A stretch of DNA of 64,000 nucleotides. Source: Synechococcus sp. CBW1107. Its GTDB lineage: Bacteria > Cyanobacteriota > Cyanobacteriia > PCC-6307 > Cyanobiaceae. Each line of letters opens with the position of its first letter. Position 1 is the first letter of the stretch. The position numbers and the translations under genes are program-made. The notes beneath the pieces were generated by a model, which was given only the letters and a program-made list of their open reading frames with translations, was not told the origin of the DNA and did not search any database. The stretch spans positions 1,550,001-1,614,000 of the forward strand of contig NZ_CP064908.1 in assembly GCF_015841355.1 (NCBI RefSeq). Reading direction: 5' to 3'. Below, piece after piece: positions 3,500-37,760 of the stretch.

Positions 3500-4468
3500 T
3501 TATCGGGCTGTGGCCAGCAGCAGCCCATCGCGGAAGGCTTCACCGGCCTCGGCACCCCGTTTGAGGGCGGCCTCCACCTCCAGCACCTGGGCCAGCAGGG
3601 TCAGCAGCCTGGAGGGGGGCCGCCCGCGGATCTGCCGGCGCATGACGTAGATCCGCTTGGGGTTGCCGATGCCGGCGGCCTTGGCAATCACGGCCACGTC
3701 CTGCTCGCCGCGGGTCTCCAGCAAACTGACCCACAGCCAGCCTCTGACCTGGCTGGTGAGCGAGGCCACCAGCCGCAGCGGAGGCTCCCCCGCCTGCAGC
3801 AGATCATCGACCAGGGCAATCGCCGCGCCGGCGTTCCCCTCCAGCAGGGCATCTCCCACCGCCAGGCTGGTGGTGCTGTGGCCGCCCACTAGGGCCGCCA
3901 CAGCCGCCACCTGAACCGGGGCCTCGCCGCTGTAGAGAGCCAGCTTCTCCAGCTCGCTGCTCAGCCGGGCGCTGTCGCTGCCGATCGTCTCGGCCAGGGC
4001 CTCCGCCGCCCCCGCCGCCAGCTTCACCCCCAGCTCGCGGGCGGTGCGCGCCACCAGCTCCACCTGGCCGGCCCCATCCCAGGAGGAGGGCAGCTGAAAG
4101 CTCTTCTCCAGGGCCCGCTCGCGCAGCGCCTTGGTGGTCCGCAGGCGGGCATCGGGTTTGCCGCTGCTCACCAGCACCAGGTGACAGCTCTCGGGGATCA
4201 GATCCAGACAGGCATCCAGCTGGCCTGCCAGCTCGGCGGAACAGGGGCTGGTGAAGGGACTGCGCTGCACCAGGACCAGCCGGGCGCCGCTGCCGAAGGG
4301 CGGGGTCCGCGCTTCGCTCAGGGCCTGGGCGGCCTGGGCGTTGTCGGATCCATCGAGACGGGTGAGGTTGATGCTGTGCCAGGCCGGATCCACCTCCCTG
4401 CTGATCAGCTCATCGACCGCCCGGGTCCTGGCGGCTTCGTCGTCACCCCAGTAGAGATGGATGGGCAT
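3500..4468 (-). CDS. holA: DNA polymerase III delta subunit
   Basis: A 322-residue protein matching the clamp-loader delta subunit, which opens the beta sliding clamp and binds the gamma/tau ATPases. The family pattern is visible: an N-terminal MPIHLYWGDDE strand, a degenerate AAA+ domain without a Walker A site, the segment LVLVQRSPF, and a C-terminal helical domain with LRGWLWVSLL-type helices ending in KRGAEAGEAFRDGLLLA. The ATG at 4466-4468 (read on the minus strand) overlaps the start of the divergent cobH gene. The gap to lysC downstream is 31 bases. Confidence 0.88.
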   Translation of the reverse strand: MPIHLYWGDDEAARTRAVDELISREVDPAWHSINLTRLDGSDNAQAAQALSEARTPPFGSGARLVLVQRSPFTSPCSAELAGQLDACLDLIPESCHLVLVSSGKPDARLRTTKALRERALEKSFQLPSSWDGAGQVELVARTARELGVKLAAGAAEALAETIGSDSARLSSELEKLALYSGEAPVQVAAVAALVGGHSTTSLAVGDALLEGNAGAAIALVDDLLQAGEPPLRLVASLTSQVRGWLWVSLLETRGEQDVAVIAKAAGIGNPKRIYVMRRQIRGRPPSRLLTLLAQVLEVEAALKRGAEAGEAFRDGLLLATAR

Positions 4469-5534
4469 GGGGCGGCCTGGCTTGGATCTGGATCATCCGA
4501 TCTTCAGCGAAAGTGTGCGGCGCATCCGCCAGTGGCTGGGCCCCACCGGTCTGGATCCGGTGCAGCAGGAGGTGCTGGAGCGACTCGTGCACAGCAGTGG
4601 CGATCTGACCATCGCCGCCGACCTGCGCTTCAGTGCGGACGCTTGCGCCATCGGGCTCGCGGCTTTGGCAGGGGGCGCTGTGATCCTCACCGACACGGCC
4701 ATGGCAGCCGCGGCGGTGTCGCCGATGGCCCGGCGCACCTTCGCCAATCCGGTGCGCAGCATCCTTGAGTGGGCACCGGATGCGGCACCGCCCGGGGGCA
4801 CCCGCAGCGCCGAGGGCCTGGAAGCGGCCCTGGCGGCCTGTCCCGGCGCGGTGGTGCTGATCGGCAGTGCCCCCACCGCTCTGGAGCGCCTGCTCGATCA
4901 GCCCCGCGGCCCCAGCCGGCCAGCCCTGGTGATCGGCATGCCGGTGGGCTTCGTGGGGGTGGCGGAGAGCAAGCGGCGGTTGGCCGCCAGTGATCTGACC
5001 CAGATCCGGCTCGACGGCAGCCGGGGTGGTGCCGGCCTGGTTGGAGCCACCTGCAACGCCCTGCTGCGCCGGGCCTGGCTGGAGGCGTCTCCCCCGCCAC
5101 CAGGCACTCTCCTCCCGGCAGTCGGGCCGGAGCTGCCTGACGGCCGGCCGCTGCCCCGGGTCCCTGTGTCGGTGGGGGAGCTGATCGACAAGCTCACCAT
5201 CCTGGCAATCAAGCGCGAGCGCATTCAGGAGCCTGAGCGTGCCTGCCTCGTCAGAGCCGAGCTCGATCAGCTGCAGGCGGTGGCCCGGCAGCTGGGCCTC
5301 GGAGCGGACCATGGGGTCGTGGCGGAGCTGGGCCGGCGGCTCGAGGGGGTGAACAGGGAGCTCTGGGATGTGGAGGAGGCGATCCGTGCCCAGGAGCGGG
5401 CCGGATGCTTCGATGCCACTTTCATTGCCCTGGCGCGTTCGGTGTATCGCCTCAACGATGAGAGGGCCGCGCTCAAGCGCCGCATCAGTGAGTGGAGCGG
5501 CTCGGCCCTGGTGGAGGTGAAGTCCTACGGCTGA
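4461..5534 (+). CDS. cobH: Precorrin-8X methylmutase fused to a DUF6165 domain
   Basis: Residues 1-209 are a complete precorrin-8X methylmutase (CobH/CbiC), which moves the C-11 methyl group to C-12 to form hydrogenobyrinate in cobalamin synthesis. The likely catalytic histidine is His44 in RLVHSSGD, and FANPVRSILEW and IGMPVGFVGVAESK follow. After a Pro-rich linker (210-233) the frame continues without a stop into a DUF6165 domain (234-357): PVSVGELIDKLTILAIK, LWDVEEAIR, ARSVYRLNDERAALKR, and a terminal SALVEVKSYG. CobH alone is normally about 210 residues, so this is a real in-frame fusion in the given sequence. DUF6165 has no known function; it is usually a separate small protein. A second ATG at 4467 is equally possible. 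It converges on mutS with one base between stops. Confidence 0.85.
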   Translation: MGMGRPGLDLDHPIFSESVRRIRQWLGPTGLDPVQQEVLERLVHSSGDLTIAADLRFSADACAIGLAALAGGAVILTDTAMAAAAVSPMARRTFANPVRSILEWAPDAAPPGGTRSAEGLEAALAACPGAVVLIGSAPTALERLLDQPRGPSRPALVIGMPVGFVGVAESKRRLAASDLTQIRLDGSRGGAGLVGATCNALLRRAWLEASPPPPGTLLPAVGPELPDGRPLPRVPVSVGELIDKLTILAIKRERIQEPERACLVRAELDQLQAVARQLGLGADHGVVAELGRRLEGVNRELWDVEEAIRAQERAGCFDATFIALARSVYRLNDERAALKRRISEWSGSALVEVKSYG

Positions 5535-5535
5535 T

Positions 5536-8286
5536 TCAGGCTGCGGCCTGGAGACCCACGGCCACATGACTGTTGGCCTCGATCCGCCCCAGCACCTGGC
5601 GGGCCCGCTGCACCACCTGGGGCGGCACGCCCGCCAGGCGGGCCGCCTCGATGCCGTAGCTCCGGCTGGCGCCGCCCGGACGCACCTGGTGCAGAAAGAG
5701 GAGGCGGTCGCCAGTTTCCTCCACCAGCACCTGGTAGTTGGCGACACCCGGCAGCAGCGAGGCCAGTTCGTTGAGCTCGTGGTAATGGGTGGCGAACACC
5801 GCCCGTGCCCGCAGCCCCGCCGCCAGGTGCTCCGCCACGGCCCAGGCGATCGAGAGGCCATCGAAGGTGGCGGTGCCGCGGCCGATCTCATCGAGAAGCA
5901 CCAGGGAGCGGTCGGTGGCGTGGTGAAGGATGTTGGCGGTCTCGGCCATCTCCACCATGAAGGTGGACTGGCCGCTGGCCAGGTCATCGACGGCCCCCAC
6001 CCGGGTGAAGATGCGATCGGCCAGGCCGAGGCGGGCTGATCGGGCTGGAATCCAGCTGCCGATCTGCGCCATCAGCTGCAGCAATCCGTTCTGGCGCAGG
6101 TAGCAGCTCTTGCCGCTGGCGTTCGGCCCGGTGAGCACCACCAGGTCGGGGCGCCCCTCCTCACCCAGGTGCAGATCGTTGGCGCTGAACGACTCCTCCA
6201 CCAGGAGTTGCTCCACCACCGGGTGCCGTCCCGCCTCCACCTGAAGGCAGCGGCTGTGCTCCAGTTGCGGCCGGCAGTAGGCATGGCAGGCGGCCACCTC
6301 CGCCAGCGACGCCAGGGCATCGAGGCCCGCCACGCGCCGGGCGGCCTGACGGATCGGTCCGGCCAGCTCCCCCACCTGCTGTCGCAGCTGGCTGAACAGC
6401 TCGTATTCCCGTTGGGCCGCCCGGGCCCGGAGTTGCAGGATGCGGCCTTCGCGCGCCTTGAGCTCGGGGGTGACGAAGCGCTCCTCGTTGGCCAGGGTCT
6501 GACGGCGGATCCAGTGTTCGGGCACGTGCCCGGCACGCGCCCGGCTCACAGAAAGGAAGTAGCCGAAGCTGCGGTGGAACTGCAGCCGCAGAGTGGGAAT
6601 GCCGCTGCGACGGCGCTCCTCCTGCTCCTGCGCCGCCAGCCACCGGTCCTGATCGTCGAGCCGGTTGCGCAGTCCATCCAGGCGGCCGTCGACGCCGTCG
6701 TGGATCAGGCCGCCCTCACTGAGGCTGAGCGGTGGCGTGTCCACCAGGGTGTGGCGCACCAGGGCCGCCAGCTCTGCCAGCTCCGGATCGGTCTTCTGCA
6801 GGGGGCCGAACACGGCCGCGGTCGCTGGCTCCAGCAGGGCGGCGAGGCGGGGCAGGCGTTCCAGTCCATCGGCGAGGGCCACCAGATCGCGGGCGGAGGC
6901 GCTGCCGGCCCCGGCCCGTCCTGCCAGGCGCTCGAGATCACCCATGGGCCGCAGCAGCCGGCGCAGGGCCAGGCGCAGGGGCCGTTGCTGCACCAGCACA
7001 CCGATGCCGTCCTGGCGCCGCTCGATCGCCTCCAGCTCCATCAGGGGGGCGTCCAGCCAGCGTCGCAGTGCCCTGGCCCCCATGGCGGTCATGGTGCGAT
7101 CCAGGGCCCAGAGCAGCGACCCCTGAAACTGTCCATCCCGCTGGGTCTGGGTGATTTCCAGGTTGCGGCGGGTCTGGGCATCAAGCACCAGCTGATCGCC
7201 GCGCTGCTGGAGGGTGGGCCGATCCAGAGGGATGCGGTCGGCGATGGCGACCGCTGTCTCGTCGGTGACCGGCTGGGTGTCATCGAGATAGCGCACGAGG
7301 CCGCCGGCGGCTCTCAGGGCCAGGGGCGCCTCGCCCAGGCCCAGGCCCTCGAGGCTGGCCAGCTCGAAGCGCTCCATCAGGGTGCGGCGTGCCTCCGGCA
7401 TGGTGAAGGGAGTGAGCGGCAGCGGAGTGCGGTGGATCGACTCCGGCGCCCAGGCCGGCTCGCCGGACTCCGCAGTGGGCCAGAGAAGCTCGGCCGGCTC
7501 CAGCCGCAGCAGGTCCTGGTGCAGCTGATCGCTGCCCTGGCGCTGCATCAGCTGGAATTCGCCGGTGCTCACATCCGCCACAGCCAGCCCCCACTGCCCC
7601 TGCTCCAGCACCACAGCCGCCAGCCAGTTGTTGCGGCGTGCCGCCAGCATCCCTTCCTCCAGCACGGTGCCGGGGGTGAGAACGCGGGTGATCCCCCGCC
7701 TGAGCAGAGCGCCCGGGGCCGGTGTGCTCTCCAGCTGGTCGCAGAGGGCCACGGCCAGGCCACGGCGCACCAGTTCGCCGCAGTAGCGCTCGGCGGCGTG
7801 GTGGGGGATGCCGGCCATCGGCACCCGCCCGATCCGTTTGCCCCCCTCCTTTCCCGTGAGGGTGAGCTCCAGCAGCCGCGACACCCGGATGGCGTCCTCG
7901 AAGAAGCACTCGTAGAAGTCGCCGAGGCGGTACAGCAGCACCCGCTCGGGGTGAGCCGCCTTCAGCTCCACGTAGTGGCGCAGGACCGGTGGCAGGGCCT
8001 CGGGATCCACCAGGCCGTGGTGGTGCCAGGGGGGCAGGGTGTCGGCGGGATCTCCGGGCTCGGCCGGATCCGGGGGGCCGGCAGGCTCGGGACTCCCTGC
8101 GGGGACTTCGGTCCCCTTGCCCTGGCGCCGCCGGGGGCGGGCGGCCGCCTCCGCCATCAGGTCATCATCACTCTCGCCGGTGGGGCCATCCGGGGAGGCT
8201 GTCCTGGCGGGACTGCTCGGGGTGGGGTCGGCTTCCAGGCCAAGGGCAGCCACCAGCGAGAGCTGTTCTTCCGGCGGCGTGGCCAC
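5536..8286 (-). CDS. mutS: DNA mismatch repair protein MutS
   Basis: The 916-residue ATPase recognises base mismatches and small loops. The mismatch-reading Phe-X-Glu motif is visible in [11 protein letters not shown] after an N-terminal extension of about 110 Ala/Pro/Asp-rich residues that looks disordered. The connector, lever and clamp domains follow, then the ATPase: Walker [14 protein letters not shown], Walker [17 protein letters not shown], and FATHYHEL. The C-terminal end [16 protein letters not shown] fits the family. The GTG at 8286 is the first start in the open frame; a later start inside the disordered extension cannot be excluded. It converges with the cobH fusion gene. Confidence 0.95.
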
Positions 8287-11501: not shown

Positions 11502-12238
11502 TTGAGCTGCGAGATGTCTGGTTGAGGATCCCTGTGACCTCCTCAGAGACCCGCAGCCTCAAGACAGCACTGCTTCGTTCTGTGACAGGCGGTAAACTCA
11601 GGCACTCCCGTTCGGGTGCTGTTATTGAGGCGTTGCGGGGAATCTCGTGCACGATCCGGCATGGTGAACGGGTTGCCTTGATCGGACATAATGGAGCTGG
11701 AAAGTCCACTTTTCTCAAGCTTATATCTGGAATTTACTTTCCCACTTCAGGGTCTTTCAAGGCATCTTGTCATGTTTTTCCTATGATCCAGAAGAGCTTC
11801 ATCACCAGCCCTGAGCTCAGCGGGGTTCAGGCTGTGAAGGCTCACTATCTACTCACACACAGTAATCTTCGCGGCTTCCAATCATTTCTCGACAATGCCC
11901 TGGAGTTTTCCGGGCTCGGAGATTTTATTCATCTCCCCGTAAAAAGCTATAGCGAGGGGATGGCCTCCAGGTTGTTGTTTTCGGTATTGACTGAATCGAA
12001 GCATGAGTGCCTCGCGCTTGACGAGGGTTTTGGTGCTGGCGATAGTCGATTTTTTGAAAAAGCCCAGGAAAGGATGCATGAGTTCATTGCAAAAGCAGGG
12101 ACGTTGATACTTGCGACTCATTCTGATGTTTTACTTCACCAGTTCTGCTCTCGCGGAATTGTCTTTGACCAGGGGACGATCGTTTATGATGGGGAACTCG
12201 AAGGGGCACTCGACTACTACCATCGCATCAATTACTGA
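11498..12238 (+). CDS. Polysaccharide ABC exporter, ATPase subunit (Wzt/KpsT-like, short form)
   Basis: The 246-residue ATPase drives export of a glycan across the inner membrane. Walker A is GHNGAGKST, the signature is YSEGMASRLLFSV, Walker B is CLALDEGFGAGD, and the H-loop is LATHSD. The altered signature SEGM and the DE..GAGD string are characteristic of O-antigen and capsule exporters rather than importers. It stops right after the ATPase core, so it lacks the C-terminal sugar-binding domain of E. coli O9a Wzt. I chose GTG 11498, which gives a 4-base overlap with the previous gene; an ATG at 11399 would overlap it by 103 bases and add a low-complexity leader. The permease follows, overlapping by about 50 bases. 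Confidence 0.85.
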   Translation: MIELRDVWLRIPVTSSETRSLKTALLRSVTGGKLRHSRSGAVIEALRGISCTIRHGERVALIGHNGAGKSTFLKLISGIYFPTSGSFKASCHVFPMIQKSFITSPELSGVQAVKAHYLLTHSNLRGFQSFLDNALEFSGLGDFIHLPVKSYSEGMASRLLFSVLTESKHECLALDEGFGAGDSRFFEKAQERMHEFIAKAGTLILATHSDVLLHQFCSRGIVFDQGTIVYDGELEGALDYYHRINY

Positions 12239-24245: not shown

Positions 24246-24335
24246 CGGCTCACCTCCCTCAGATTTCAGCTGTGGCAATGGGTGGGCCGGTCTGTGACCC
24301 TGTTCGGAGAACTACCACCAAACCGAACACAGACC

Positions 24336-25592
24336 ATGACCCTCACCCATAGTGGCGCCTCCGAGCTGAGCCAGCTCATGGAGGGCACCACCGCTGGCGC
24401 CCTGATCCCAGAGATCGTGCGCCGGGGTTTCCAGGACCTGCTGGAAGCCGAGGTTTCTGCCCTCACGGGCGCTCAACTCCATGAGCGCTGCCCCGATCAG
24501 CGCTCCACCCATCGCAACGGCTACCGGGAGCGGCTGCTCACCACCCAGGTGGGCGACCTCAGCCTGGCCATTCCCAGGTTGCGGCAGGGCAGCTTCTTTC
24601 CCAGCTGGCTGGAGCCACGCCGCCGGGTGGACAAGGCGCTCTACGCCGTGGTGATGGAGGCCTACACCGGCGGGATCTCCACCCGCAAGGTCGACGCCCT
24701 GGTGGAGGCGCTGGGCGGGGCCAGCGGCATCTCCAAATCGGAGGTGAGCCGCATCTGCCAGGGGCTCGATGAGCAGGTGAAAGCCTTTCTGGGCCGGCCG
24801 CTTGACCATGCCCGCTTTCCCTACGTCTACCTCGACGCCACCTACCTCCACGGCCGCCTGGGCCGAAATATGCAGGTGGTGTCGCGGGCGGTGGTGGTGG
24901 CGATCGGCATCAATGCCCTCGGCTACCGCGAAGTTCTCGGCATTGCCGTGGGCGACAGCGAGGCGGAGGGCTTCTGGCGTCAGTTCCTGGGCTCACTCAA
25001 GGAGCGTGGCCTCGACGGCACCCGCCTGGTGATCTCGGATGCCCACCTGGGCCTGACGGCAGCGATCAAGCGGATGTTCCAGGGCAGTAGCTGGCAGAGG
25101 TGCCGGGTGCACTTCCTGCGCAACCTGCTGAGCCATGTGCCCAAGGCCGGCCAGGACATGGTGGCCGCTGCCATGAAAGCGGTGTTCGTGATCCAGGCTC
25201 CAGATCAGGTGCGCGCCCACTGGCAGCGGGTCACCGAGATGCTGCGCAAGCAGTTCCCCGGCGCCGTGCCCGTGATGGAAGCCGCCCGGGACGACGTGCT
25301 GGCCTTCCTGCACTTCCCCCAGGAGCACTGGCGCAAGGTCTGGAGCACCAACCCGCTCGAGCGCCTCAACAAGGAGATCAAACGCCGCACCAACGTGGTC
25401 GGCATCTTCCCCAATGATCCAGCGATCGTGCGCCTGGTGGGCAGCCAGCTGCTGGAGCAGCAGGAGGAATGGCAGCTGGAGCGTCGCCGCTTCTTCTCTG
25501 AGGCCACCATGGCCAAGATCCCAGAGCCAGAAGAGCCCTTGGAGCTCACCGATGCAGATCCGAACGCCCAGCCGGCTGCAACCATCAGCTGA
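24336..25592 (+). CDS. IS256-family (Mutator-type) transposase, copy 1
   Basis: A 418-residue DDE transposase. The catalytic residues are in YVYLDATYLHGR (first Asp), LVISDAHLGLTAAI (second Asp), and NPLERLNKEIKRRTNVVGIFP (Glu), with the Mutator signature GISTRKVDALVEALG and WQRCRVHFLRNLLS between them. ATG 24336 is chosen; an in-frame GTG at 24282 would add 18 residues with no family support. The gene is intact and identical to the second copy, which suggests recent activity. Confidence 0.95.
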   Translation: MTLTHSGASELSQLMEGTTAGALIPEIVRRGFQDLLEAEVSALTGAQLHERCPDQRSTHRNGYRERLLTTQVGDLSLAIPRLRQGSFFPSWLEPRRRVDKALYAVVMEAYTGGISTRKVDALVEALGGASGISKSEVSRICQGLDEQVKAFLGRPLDHARFPYVYLDATYLHGRLGRNMQVVSRAVVVAIGINALGYREVLGIAVGDSEAEGFWRQFLGSLKERGLDGTRLVISDAHLGLTAAIKRMFQGSSWQRCRVHFLRNLLSHVPKAGQDMVAAAMKAVFVIQAPDQVRAHWQRVTEMLRKQFPGAVPVMEAARDDVLAFLHFPQEHWRKVWSTNPLERLNKEIKRRTNVVGIFPNDPAIVRLVGSQLLEQQEEWQLERRRFFSEATMAKIPEPEEPLELTDADPNAQPAATIS

Positions 25593-36160: not shown

Positions 36161-37760
36161 AGCGGCGTCCCAGCAAGTGGTGTAACTCAGGAGGATCAGC
36201 CCCGGCGTAGCCGGGGCTGACGGCTCACCTCCCTCAGATTTCAGCTGTGGCAATGGGTGGGCCGGTCTGTGACCCTGTTCGGAGAACTACCACCAAACCG
36301 AACACAGACCATGACCCTCACCCATAGTGGCGCCTCCGAGCTGAGCCAGCTCATGGAGGGCACCACCGCTGGCGCCCTGATCCCAGAGATCGTGCGCCGG
36401 GGTTTCCAGGACCTGCTGGAAGCCGAGGTTTCTGCCCTCACGGGCGCTCAACTCCATGAGCGCTGCCCCGATCAGCGCTCCACCCATCGCAACGGCTACC
36501 GGGAGCGGCTGCTCACCACCCAGGTGGGCGACCTCAGCCTGGCCATTCCCAGGTTGCGGCAGGGCAGCTTCTTTCCCAGCTGGCTGGAGCCACGCCGCCG
36601 GGTGGACAAGGCGCTCTACGCCGTGGTGATGGAGGCCTACACCGGCGGGATCTCCACCCGCAAGGTCGACGCCCTGGTGGAGGCGCTGGGCGGGGCCAGC
36701 GGCATCTCCAAATCGGAGGTGAGCCGCATCTGCCAGGGGCTCGATGAGCAGGTGAAAGCCTTTCTGGGCCGGCCGCTTGACCATGCCCGCTTTCCCTACG
36801 TCTACCTCGACGCCACCTACCTCCACGGCCGCCTGGGCCGAAATATGCAGGTGGTGTCGCGGGCGGTGGTGGTGGCGATCGGCATCAATGCCCTCGGCTA
36901 CCGCGAAGTTCTCGGCATTGCCGTGGGCGACAGCGAGGCGGAGGGCTTCTGGCGTCAGTTCCTGGGCTCACTCAAGGAGCGTGGCCTCGACGGCACCCGC
37001 CTGGTGATCTCGGATGCCCACCTGGGCCTGACGGCAGCGATCAAGCGGATGTTCCAGGGCAGTAGCTGGCAGAGGTGCCGGGTGCACTTCCTGCGCAACC
37101 TGCTGAGCCATGTGCCCAAGGCCGGCCAGGACATGGTGGCCGCTGCCATGAAAGCGGTGTTCGTGATCCAGGCTCCAGATCAGGTGCGCGCCCACTGGCA
37201 GCGGGTCACCGAGATGCTGCGCAAGCAGTTCCCCGGCGCCGTGCCCGTGATGGAAGCCGCCCGGGACGACGTGCTGGCCTTCCTGCACTTCCCCCAGGAG
37301 CACTGGCGCAAGGTCTGGAGCACCAACCCGCTCGAGCGCCTCAACAAGGAGATCAAACGCCGCACCAACGTGGTCGGCATCTTCCCCAATGATCCAGCGA
37401 TCGTGCGCCTGGTGGGCAGCCAGCTGCTGGAGCAGCAGGAGGAATGGCAGCTGGAGCGTCGCCGCTTCTTCTCTGAGGCCACCATGGCCAAGATCCCAGA
37501 GCCAGAAGAGCCCTTGGAGCTCACCGATGCAGATCCGAACGCCCAGCCGGCTGCAACCATCAGCTGAAGCGCACCAGCTTCTACCTCGATCTACACAGAA
37601 CACATCGATCGCTGAGTTGCCAATTCAGCGATCAGGGTTCATAATGGATCAATGGAGCTGCGCAATCAGCTTCCAAGCAGTCATCCCCTGACTGCTCCTG
37701 TTCACCCTCCGGAGAGGGTCACAGGACCTCCTGAGTTACACCACTCGGAGGGGCGCTACC
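36161..37760 (+). mobile_element. IS256-family insertion sequence, copy 2
   Basis: Same 1600 bases and orientation as the copy at 24186-25785, with the inner hairpin at 36196-36220. Its flanks are a different 8-base duplication, CTGCCGGC (36153-36160 and 37761-37768), showing that it arrived by its own transposition event. Confidence 0.93.
36311..37567 (+). CDS. IS256-family (Mutator-type) transposase, copy 2
   Basis: The 418-residue protein is identical to the one encoded at 24336-25592, with the same DDE residues and start choice (an in-frame GTG at 36257 is the longer alternative). Intact. Confidence 0.95.
   Translation: MTLTHSGASELSQLMEGTTAGALIPEIVRRGFQDLLEAEVSALTGAQLHERCPDQRSTHRNGYRERLLTTQVGDLSLAIPRLRQGSFFPSWLEPRRRVDKALYAVVMEAYTGGISTRKVDALVEALGGASGISKSEVSRICQGLDEQVKAFLGRPLDHARFPYVYLDATYLHGRLGRNMQVVSRAVVVAIGINALGYREVLGIAVGDSEAEGFWRQFLGSLKERGLDGTRLVISDAHLGLTAAIKRMFQGSSWQRCRVHFLRNLLSHVPKAGQDMVAAAMKAVFVIQAPDQVRAHWQRVTEMLRKQFPGAVPVMEAARDDVLAFLHFPQEHWRKVWSTNPLERLNKEIKRRTNVVGIFPNDPAIVRLVGSQLLEQQEEWQLERRRFFSEATMAKIPEPEEPLELTDADPNAQPAATIS

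Follow-up and report, generated by a model that had tools for sequence, protein, structure and literature searches.

The locus examined here raises the question of why a corrin-synthesis enzyme, the precorrin-8X methylmutase CobH, carries a DUF6165 domain within the same reading frame, and what the second domain may do there. It lies in a stretch of 64,000 nucleotides of Synechococcus sp. CBW1107 (contig NZ_CP064908.1, positions 1,550,001 to 1,614,000), hereafter the window, in a genome of 3.2 Mb that consists of a single contig. The explanation favored here, at a little above an even chance, is a lineage-specific fusion of neighboring genes, in which the CobH enzyme would act as carrier and a flexibly tethered DUF6165 would retain a function linked to glycans.

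The fused reading frame

The open reading frame runs from ATG 4461 to TGA 5532–5534 with neither an internal stop nor a frameshift, and the initial annotation had delimited it correctly at 357 codons. Its view of an in-frame union of two complete domains, CobH and DUF6165, is confirmed by Pfam, in which CbiC matches residues 14–203 (E 9.6e-52) and DUF6165 matches residues 234–356 (E 3.8e-10, exceeding the cut-off); a DUF4254 match inside the second domain is weak and stays below the cut-off. The Pro-rich linker described there is also present, at about residues 208–233, and is predicted to be disordered, with pLDDT <50 at residues 210–224 of the AlphaFold model. The surrounding genes are those that we take to be lysC, holA and mutS, names assigned from the sequences and not by family search (Table 1).

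Table 1. Coordinates of the features at the fused locus (window positions unless a locus is named)
Feature	Position	Strand	Remark
cobH-DUF6165 fused ORF	4461..5534	+	357 aa, with stop; identical frame in G124, G157 and G035
CobH / CbiC domain (precorrin-8X methylmutase)	4461..5081	+	residues 1-207; Pfam match 14-203
TTG, alternative CobH start	4482..4484	+	sole start-like codon position common to 9 congeners; GTG in G076
Pro-rich linker	5082..5159	+	residues 208-233
DUF6165 domain	5160..5528	+	residues 234-356, predicted four-helix bundle
In-frame GTG Val codons at 5166 and 5172	5166..5174	+	sole usual-type internal start candidates
holA (DNA polymerase III delta), divergent neighbor	3500..4468	-	homologous ORF at this place in 9 congeners
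mutS, convergent neighbor	5536..8286	-	stops of fused gene and mutS 1 base apart
Direct repeat copies, G124	L002:1451-1472 and 1898-1919
Direct repeat copies, G157	L003:1451-1470 and 1898-1917

The search for the same fusion in other picocyanobacteria, as originally proposed, located it in G124, G157 and G035, all of the same genus. A junction produced by a sequencing error, which had been named as a possible refutation, or by faulty assembly is ruled out in practice by the separate assemblies of these three further species, since all four assemblies have the same continuous frame with different linkers.

No in-frame ATG is present in the four fused species in the stretch that begins 48 residues before the end of CobH and takes in 25 codons of the DUF6165 core, and because there is thus no such start between the two domains, the fusion is likely to make one product, as far as the codons indicate. 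In the free junction genes (G134, G064 and G165), by contrast, the DUF6165 core is closely preceded by an ATG. The only start-like codons between CobH and the DUF6165 core in all four fused species are valine GTGs, and an in-frame GTG stands at the start of the DUF6165 domain in 4/4 of them, which would fit two products, with DUF6165 translated from the internal GTG and the open linker being incidental, as would the mostly free state of DUF6165 in relatives. However, unfused relatives also frequently have valine there, inspection by eye finds no Shine–Dalgarno-like run in the 20 bases preceding the window GTGs (5166/5172), and no stop follows CobH, hence no CobH would be made alone. Furthermore, the linker, measured from the end of CobH to the motif GELIDK, is 31 residues long in the window against 15 in the other three fused species, and yet the frame is kept in 4/4 across this difference of 16 codons. 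Separate translation of DUF6165 is, for these reasons, unlikely to be what the locus encodes.

The start of cobH at 4461–4484 is itself doubtful, as ATG 4461 overlaps the start of the divergent holA. Because the TTG/GTG position at 4482 is the only one common to nine congeners and ATG 4461 has this overlap, the fused protein may consist of 350 residues instead of 357.

The CobH part

The CobH part matches CbiC (PF02570) over its full length, covering profile positions 2–195 of 196 with 175.9 bits against a gathering score of 22.5. Its predicted model superposes on the solved CobH 1v9c with a Z of 23.1 and an rmsd of 3.0 over 199 aligned residues, and on 4au1 with a Z of 21.5. The His of the LVHSSGD motif, which we presume to be catalytic in CobH, aligns with a His in five solved chains, namely 1v9c, 3e7d, 4fdv, 4au1 and 5n0g. 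Compared with the solved CobH/CbiC proteins (PF02570; 1v9c, 4au1, 1f2v), the window protein shares the near-whole profile, the aligned His and the fold (model Z of 21–23); it differs in bearing a C-terminal DUF6165 and in scoring under the NCBIfam equivalog cut-offs. The best of these, PRK05954, gives 156.6 bits against a cut-off of 264, and the single unfused Cyanobiaceae CobH tested likewise fails its equivalog cut-off, at 164.3 bits.

A CbiC search finds a single match per genome in the window genome and its eight congeners. Owing to this sole CbiC match, the solved-enzyme fold of the model and the aligned histidine, CobH is here most likely an ordinary precorrin isomerase and the only copy found. 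Whether the pairs compared are fused or unfused, its dN/dS is low, as judged by eye and not by a formal test.

The DUF6165 domain

The second domain matches DUF6165 (PF19662) over profile positions 3–115 of 134 with 40.1 bits, above the gathering score of 27, and has 41–58% identity with unfused relatives; the difference from these is that it sits here on a corrin-synthesis enzyme, whereas elsewhere it is free or placed behind a TPR-GT9 region. In comparison with 20 unfused Cyanobiaceae rows, the window copy keeps 26/27 constant columns, the exception being residue 112 (Ser for Asn), and departs at 1/13 nearly constant columns. In comparison with 43 rows from other named genomes, it keeps 29/29 constant columns and departs at 4/15 nearly constant ones.

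Modelled alone, with 44 of the 80 DUF6165 loci plus the window as input, the domain is predicted to form four helices with a pLDDT of 87.9 and a pTM of 0.81. The AlphaFold model of the whole fused protein, which used 36 further rows, three of them with CobH, reaches a pTM of 0.57 with no defined interface, and does not fix the placement of one domain relative to the other. Among solved structures, no convincing relative of DUF6165 emerged: the best Foldseek match has an E of 0.078, the best VIA match (8whn, Z 9.2, rmsd 5.2) lies in the chance range for helical bundles, and no sequence match to any solved chain occurs at E ≤1. A PHROGs search gave no match, and a full-text search of the available literature library found neither papers naming DUF6165 nor a described function.

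Distribution of the fusion and selection on DUF6165

The in-frame fusion is present in 4/9 genomes of the genus, that is, in the window genome (G000), G124, G157 and G035. In the five unfused congeners (G182, G102, G076, G170 and G142), cobH either stops no more than 11 bases from the mutS end or overlaps that end, and DUF6165 is absent between the two genes (0/5); because these 5/9 congeners have no DUF6165 at the locus, the fusion is dispensable. Across 400 family genomes, some of them incomplete and at least 125 of them with any match to the fused query, a frame spanning the CobH–DUF6165 junction occurs in 4 among the matches listed, all of this genus. DUF6165 itself has a match in 52/201 family genomes (48 over the cut-off). 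On these sequences, the locus is a genuine gene fusion that is limited, within this sampling, to a single picocyanobacterial genus; no paper on a CobH gene fusion in Synechococcus was found.

Between the fused species, the DUF6165 codons have a dN/dS of 0.20–0.29 over six pairs, with a bootstrap upper limit of ≤0.50 in 5/6 pairs and of 0.91 in the closest pair. Because of these low ratios, the fused DUF6165 is, on codon comparison, under purifying selection. Its silent-site divergence is at least equal to that of CobH: dS between clades is 0.38–0.61 for DUF6165 and 0.375–0.44 for CobH in the same pairs, and 0.10 and 0.09, respectively, in the closest fused pair. A casual read-through of adjacent genes, which the initial annotation had considered, does not agree with a fusion that four species retain and whose DUF6165 part is under selection.

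Genes surrounding DUF6165 elsewhere

Where DUF6165 is not fused to CobH, 109/188 of its loci have a GT9-type gene at a distance of up to 1.5 kb, comprising 19/29 cyanobacterial loci, 54/79 named bacterial genomes and 36/80 viral contigs, and leaving out the window locus (L059) and that of the fused species Synechococcus sp. J7-Johnson (L073); these counts are a survey and not an independent test, since the nine seeds of the final GT9 model, eight of them first chosen by eye, were drawn from these same loci, and the loci are partly kin (most of the 79 genomes belong to Rhodanobacteraceae or groups close to them, and some viral contigs nearly duplicate each other). The corresponding count is 0/44 in control loci, which are cobH, rpoB and gyrB neighborhoods of the same family and are not matched by phylum. 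Eight of the nine seeds reach the PF01075 cut-off themselves or via the parent protein, and L239 falls short with 21.0 of 22. An earlier GT9 model, built from one cyanobacterial protein, detected such genes in 19/30 cyanobacterial, 10/80 genome and 0/80 viral loci.

Seven of ten viral neighbors chosen by eye match PF01075, six of them over the cut-off, and three are without a match. Six bacterial neighbors scanned with Pfam comprise two GT9 proteins, one LpxK, and one each of the glycerophosphotransferase type, EamA and UvrA: in Dyella halodurans, DUF6165 is flanked by LpxK and by a Glyco_transf_9 protein; in a Caulobacterales genome, a Glyco_transf_9 gene adjoins it; and the last three types belong to Steroidobacter, a Bdellovibrio bin and Rhodoblastus, respectively. 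A GT9 gene that is adjacent (≤200 bp) and on the same strand occurs in 16/29 cyanobacterial, only 17/79 other bacterial and 23/80 viral loci, so many of the DUF6165/GT9 pairs are not operons. The neighborhood counts suggest that DUF6165 partners GT9-type glycosyltransferases when envelope glycans are assembled, in bacteria as well as in viral contigs.

The four fused loci themselves yielded no GT9 gene at a distance of 1.5 kb or less from DUF6165. The GT9 part of a protein from the congener G102, used as query, has a match somewhere in 7/9 congener genomes, the fused four included; in the window genome, this is one GT9-like gene, 1.2 Mb away and with 34% identity. A GT9 partner of the fused DUF6165 is therefore putative, with none nearby and the one matching gene so distant in place and sequence. 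The fused DUF6165 most likely still takes part in the assembly of envelope glycans and rides on CobH.

DUF6165 is also common in viral contigs (L211–L290), where at least 565 of the 600 pattern matches listed encode a relative. In the cyanophage S-SRM01 (L210:3457–6379), DUF6165 overlaps a GT2-methyltransferase gene and precedes an annotated nucleotide-sugar epimerase; the gene preceding DUF6165 in this phage is thus of the GT2-plus-methyltransferase type and not GT9. In the window itself, positions 12000–38500 contain many ORFs that look, by eye, like glycosyltransferases and transposases, and two 436-aa ORFs (24282–25589 and 36257–37564) are identical in their first 50 residues.

Relation to corrin synthesis

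A tie of DUF6165 to corrin or another methyl/tetrapyrrole process, as first suggested, is not borne out by gene neighborhood: compared with the 109/188 loci that have GT9 within 1.5 kb, a CobH gene is near unfused DUF6165 in at least 2/188, a lower bound because most cyanobacterial loci show only a 1.5 kb flank, and one that leaves out L063–L068, loci fetched for having cobH nearby. Both belong to the same Synechococcus lysC-holA-cobH locus. A DUF6165–corrin link by neighborhood is hence rejected, and a part for DUF6165 in corrin synthesis, though conceivable, has no support here.

CobH-like domains are nevertheless known in multidomain proteins. NCBIfam has a model for a bifunctional sirohydrochlorin cobalt chelatase / precorrin-8X methylmutase (PRK05782), and CoaR of Synechocystis (PDB 9ikt) matches the CobH model with a Z of 20.8. 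CoaR is described as a cobalt sensor with a CobH-like domain that was deduced to be a putative tetrapyrrole-binding domain (PMC7689651). The likeness is that a CobH fold stands within a larger cyanobacterial protein; the difference is that the CobH-like domain of CoaR, a MerR regulator, is the deduced tetrapyrrole-binding part of a cobalt sensor, while CobH of the window is N-terminal and the only CbiC match of its genome. No Pfam match to a MerR DNA-binding domain precedes the window CobH, which starts at residue 14.

These precedents, together with the purifying selection that keeps the fusion in four species, agree with a functional coupling in which DUF6165 would act on or through CobH, for example as a binding module that positions CobH in a membrane metabolon or through which the supply of corrin would control envelope glycosylation. 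Such coupling is unlikely, given that the few unfused neighborhoods with CobH are one and the same locus, that 5/9 congeners manage without DUF6165 at the locus, that CobH is, by eye, equally constrained in fused and unfused pairs, and that the model has a disordered linker with no defined interface between the domains. A regulatory coupling, with CoaR as its precedent, is conceivable, but no result obtained here is in its favor. A broader proposal, that DUF6165 is a general GT9 partner in bacteria and phages and was set on CobH to couple corrin synthesis and envelope glycosylation physically, seems very unlikely.

Origin of the fusion

Relatives with two separate genes and an intact stop between them had been proposed as evidence against the fusion. 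Such a relative exists in another genus, as G165 has the order cobH–DUF6165–mutS with separate adjacent genes and a stop between cobH and DUF6165, and the five unfused congeners have no DUF6165 at that place; the fusion itself stands, and these arrangements speak for an origin by the joining of neighbors and do not undo it. In G134 and G064, the gene order is cobH–TPR/GT9-like–DUF6165–mutS. In addition, DUF6165 lies between lysC and holA in G199, G150 and G137, and also in G226 and G153, of which the last two are not in the domain tree.

In this tree of 38 DUF6165 domains, the rows of which were gathered by a motif that missed at least L034 and the free G182 copy, the four fused domains form one clade with a support of 100/99. 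The clade groups with DUF6165 genes from the lysC-holA-cobH-mutS locus of two other genera at a weak fork (89/78), and the next branch beside them is the TPR-GT9-DUF6165 protein of the congener G102 (91/82), the long branch of which makes its place unsure. This protein, of 755 aa (L069:1025–3289), is a natural fusion of DUF6165 with its likely usual partner. Its GT9 part has a Pfam GT9 match (E 1.2e-5), and the C-terminal part of the TPR protein of G134 and G064 is similar to it. These systems resemble the window protein in that DUF6165 is C-terminal or the next gene, and their DUF6165 domains are some of the closest to the fused one; they differ in that the partner is a TPR/GT9 protein and not CobH, GT9 being recognized by Pfam in G102 and by similarity in G134 and G064. 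No paper on GT9 with TPR in cyanobacteria was found. The cobH–mutS junction is not a general insertion hotspot, as inserts are present at 0/20 loci of other genera with a visible mutS end (out of 21 loci of other genera in the best 30 matches).

Exact direct repeats of the cobH 3′ end flank the DUF6165 segment, with 22 bases in G124 and 20 in G157, and the outer copy continues into a stop resembling the intact unfused cobH end of G102; in the window and G035, such repeats were looked for and none were found. Either an unfused end predated the insertion in the G124/G157 clade, or recombination between the copies can restore one. Meanwhile, a species tree of rpoB and gyrB places fused and unfused species in each of three clades. 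Because all three clades are mixed in this manner, about five losses or several transfers are needed: about five losses may have followed one old gain, or fewer gains may have been combined with interspecies exchange, and both histories remain on this tree.

The patchy presence in each clade and the repeats around the insert would also suit a passenger, with the DUF6165 tail being a functionless, decaying remnant of an inserted segment, and so would the absence of a GT9 partner from the locus and the departures of the window copy (Ser for Asn at one of the 27 constant columns, and the four of 15 nearly constant ones). Against this stand the low dN/dS, the lack of any stop or frameshift in four species and the agreement of the window copy at all other constant columns, which make a decaying remnant distinctly unlikely.

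The simplest history, the direction of which we infer, is a glycan-type insertion at the locus, followed by the loss of the glycosyltransferase gene and the joining of DUF6165 to cobH. According to the favored fusion of neighbors, glycan-type genes would have entered the junction of the convergent cobH and mutS in this genus and at least one other, and, either in the ancestor of the genus or early in its history, the DUF6165 gene at the junction would have lost its start codon and joined cobH in frame. The resulting single protein would consist of the precorrin isomerase CobH and, attached by a flexible linker, the four-helix bundle of DUF6165. This second part would still do what it did ancestrally, most likely by partnering GT9-type glycosyltransferases in envelope polysaccharide/LPS assembly, and CobH would mainly be its carrier. 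The fusion offers a clean case of an inserted gene becoming part of a housekeeping neighbor, in which fused and unfused species can be compared side by side.

At the same junction in G035 (L004, about 1480–1547), the tail of mutS is 23 codons longer than in the window and enters DUF6165 in the antisense direction.
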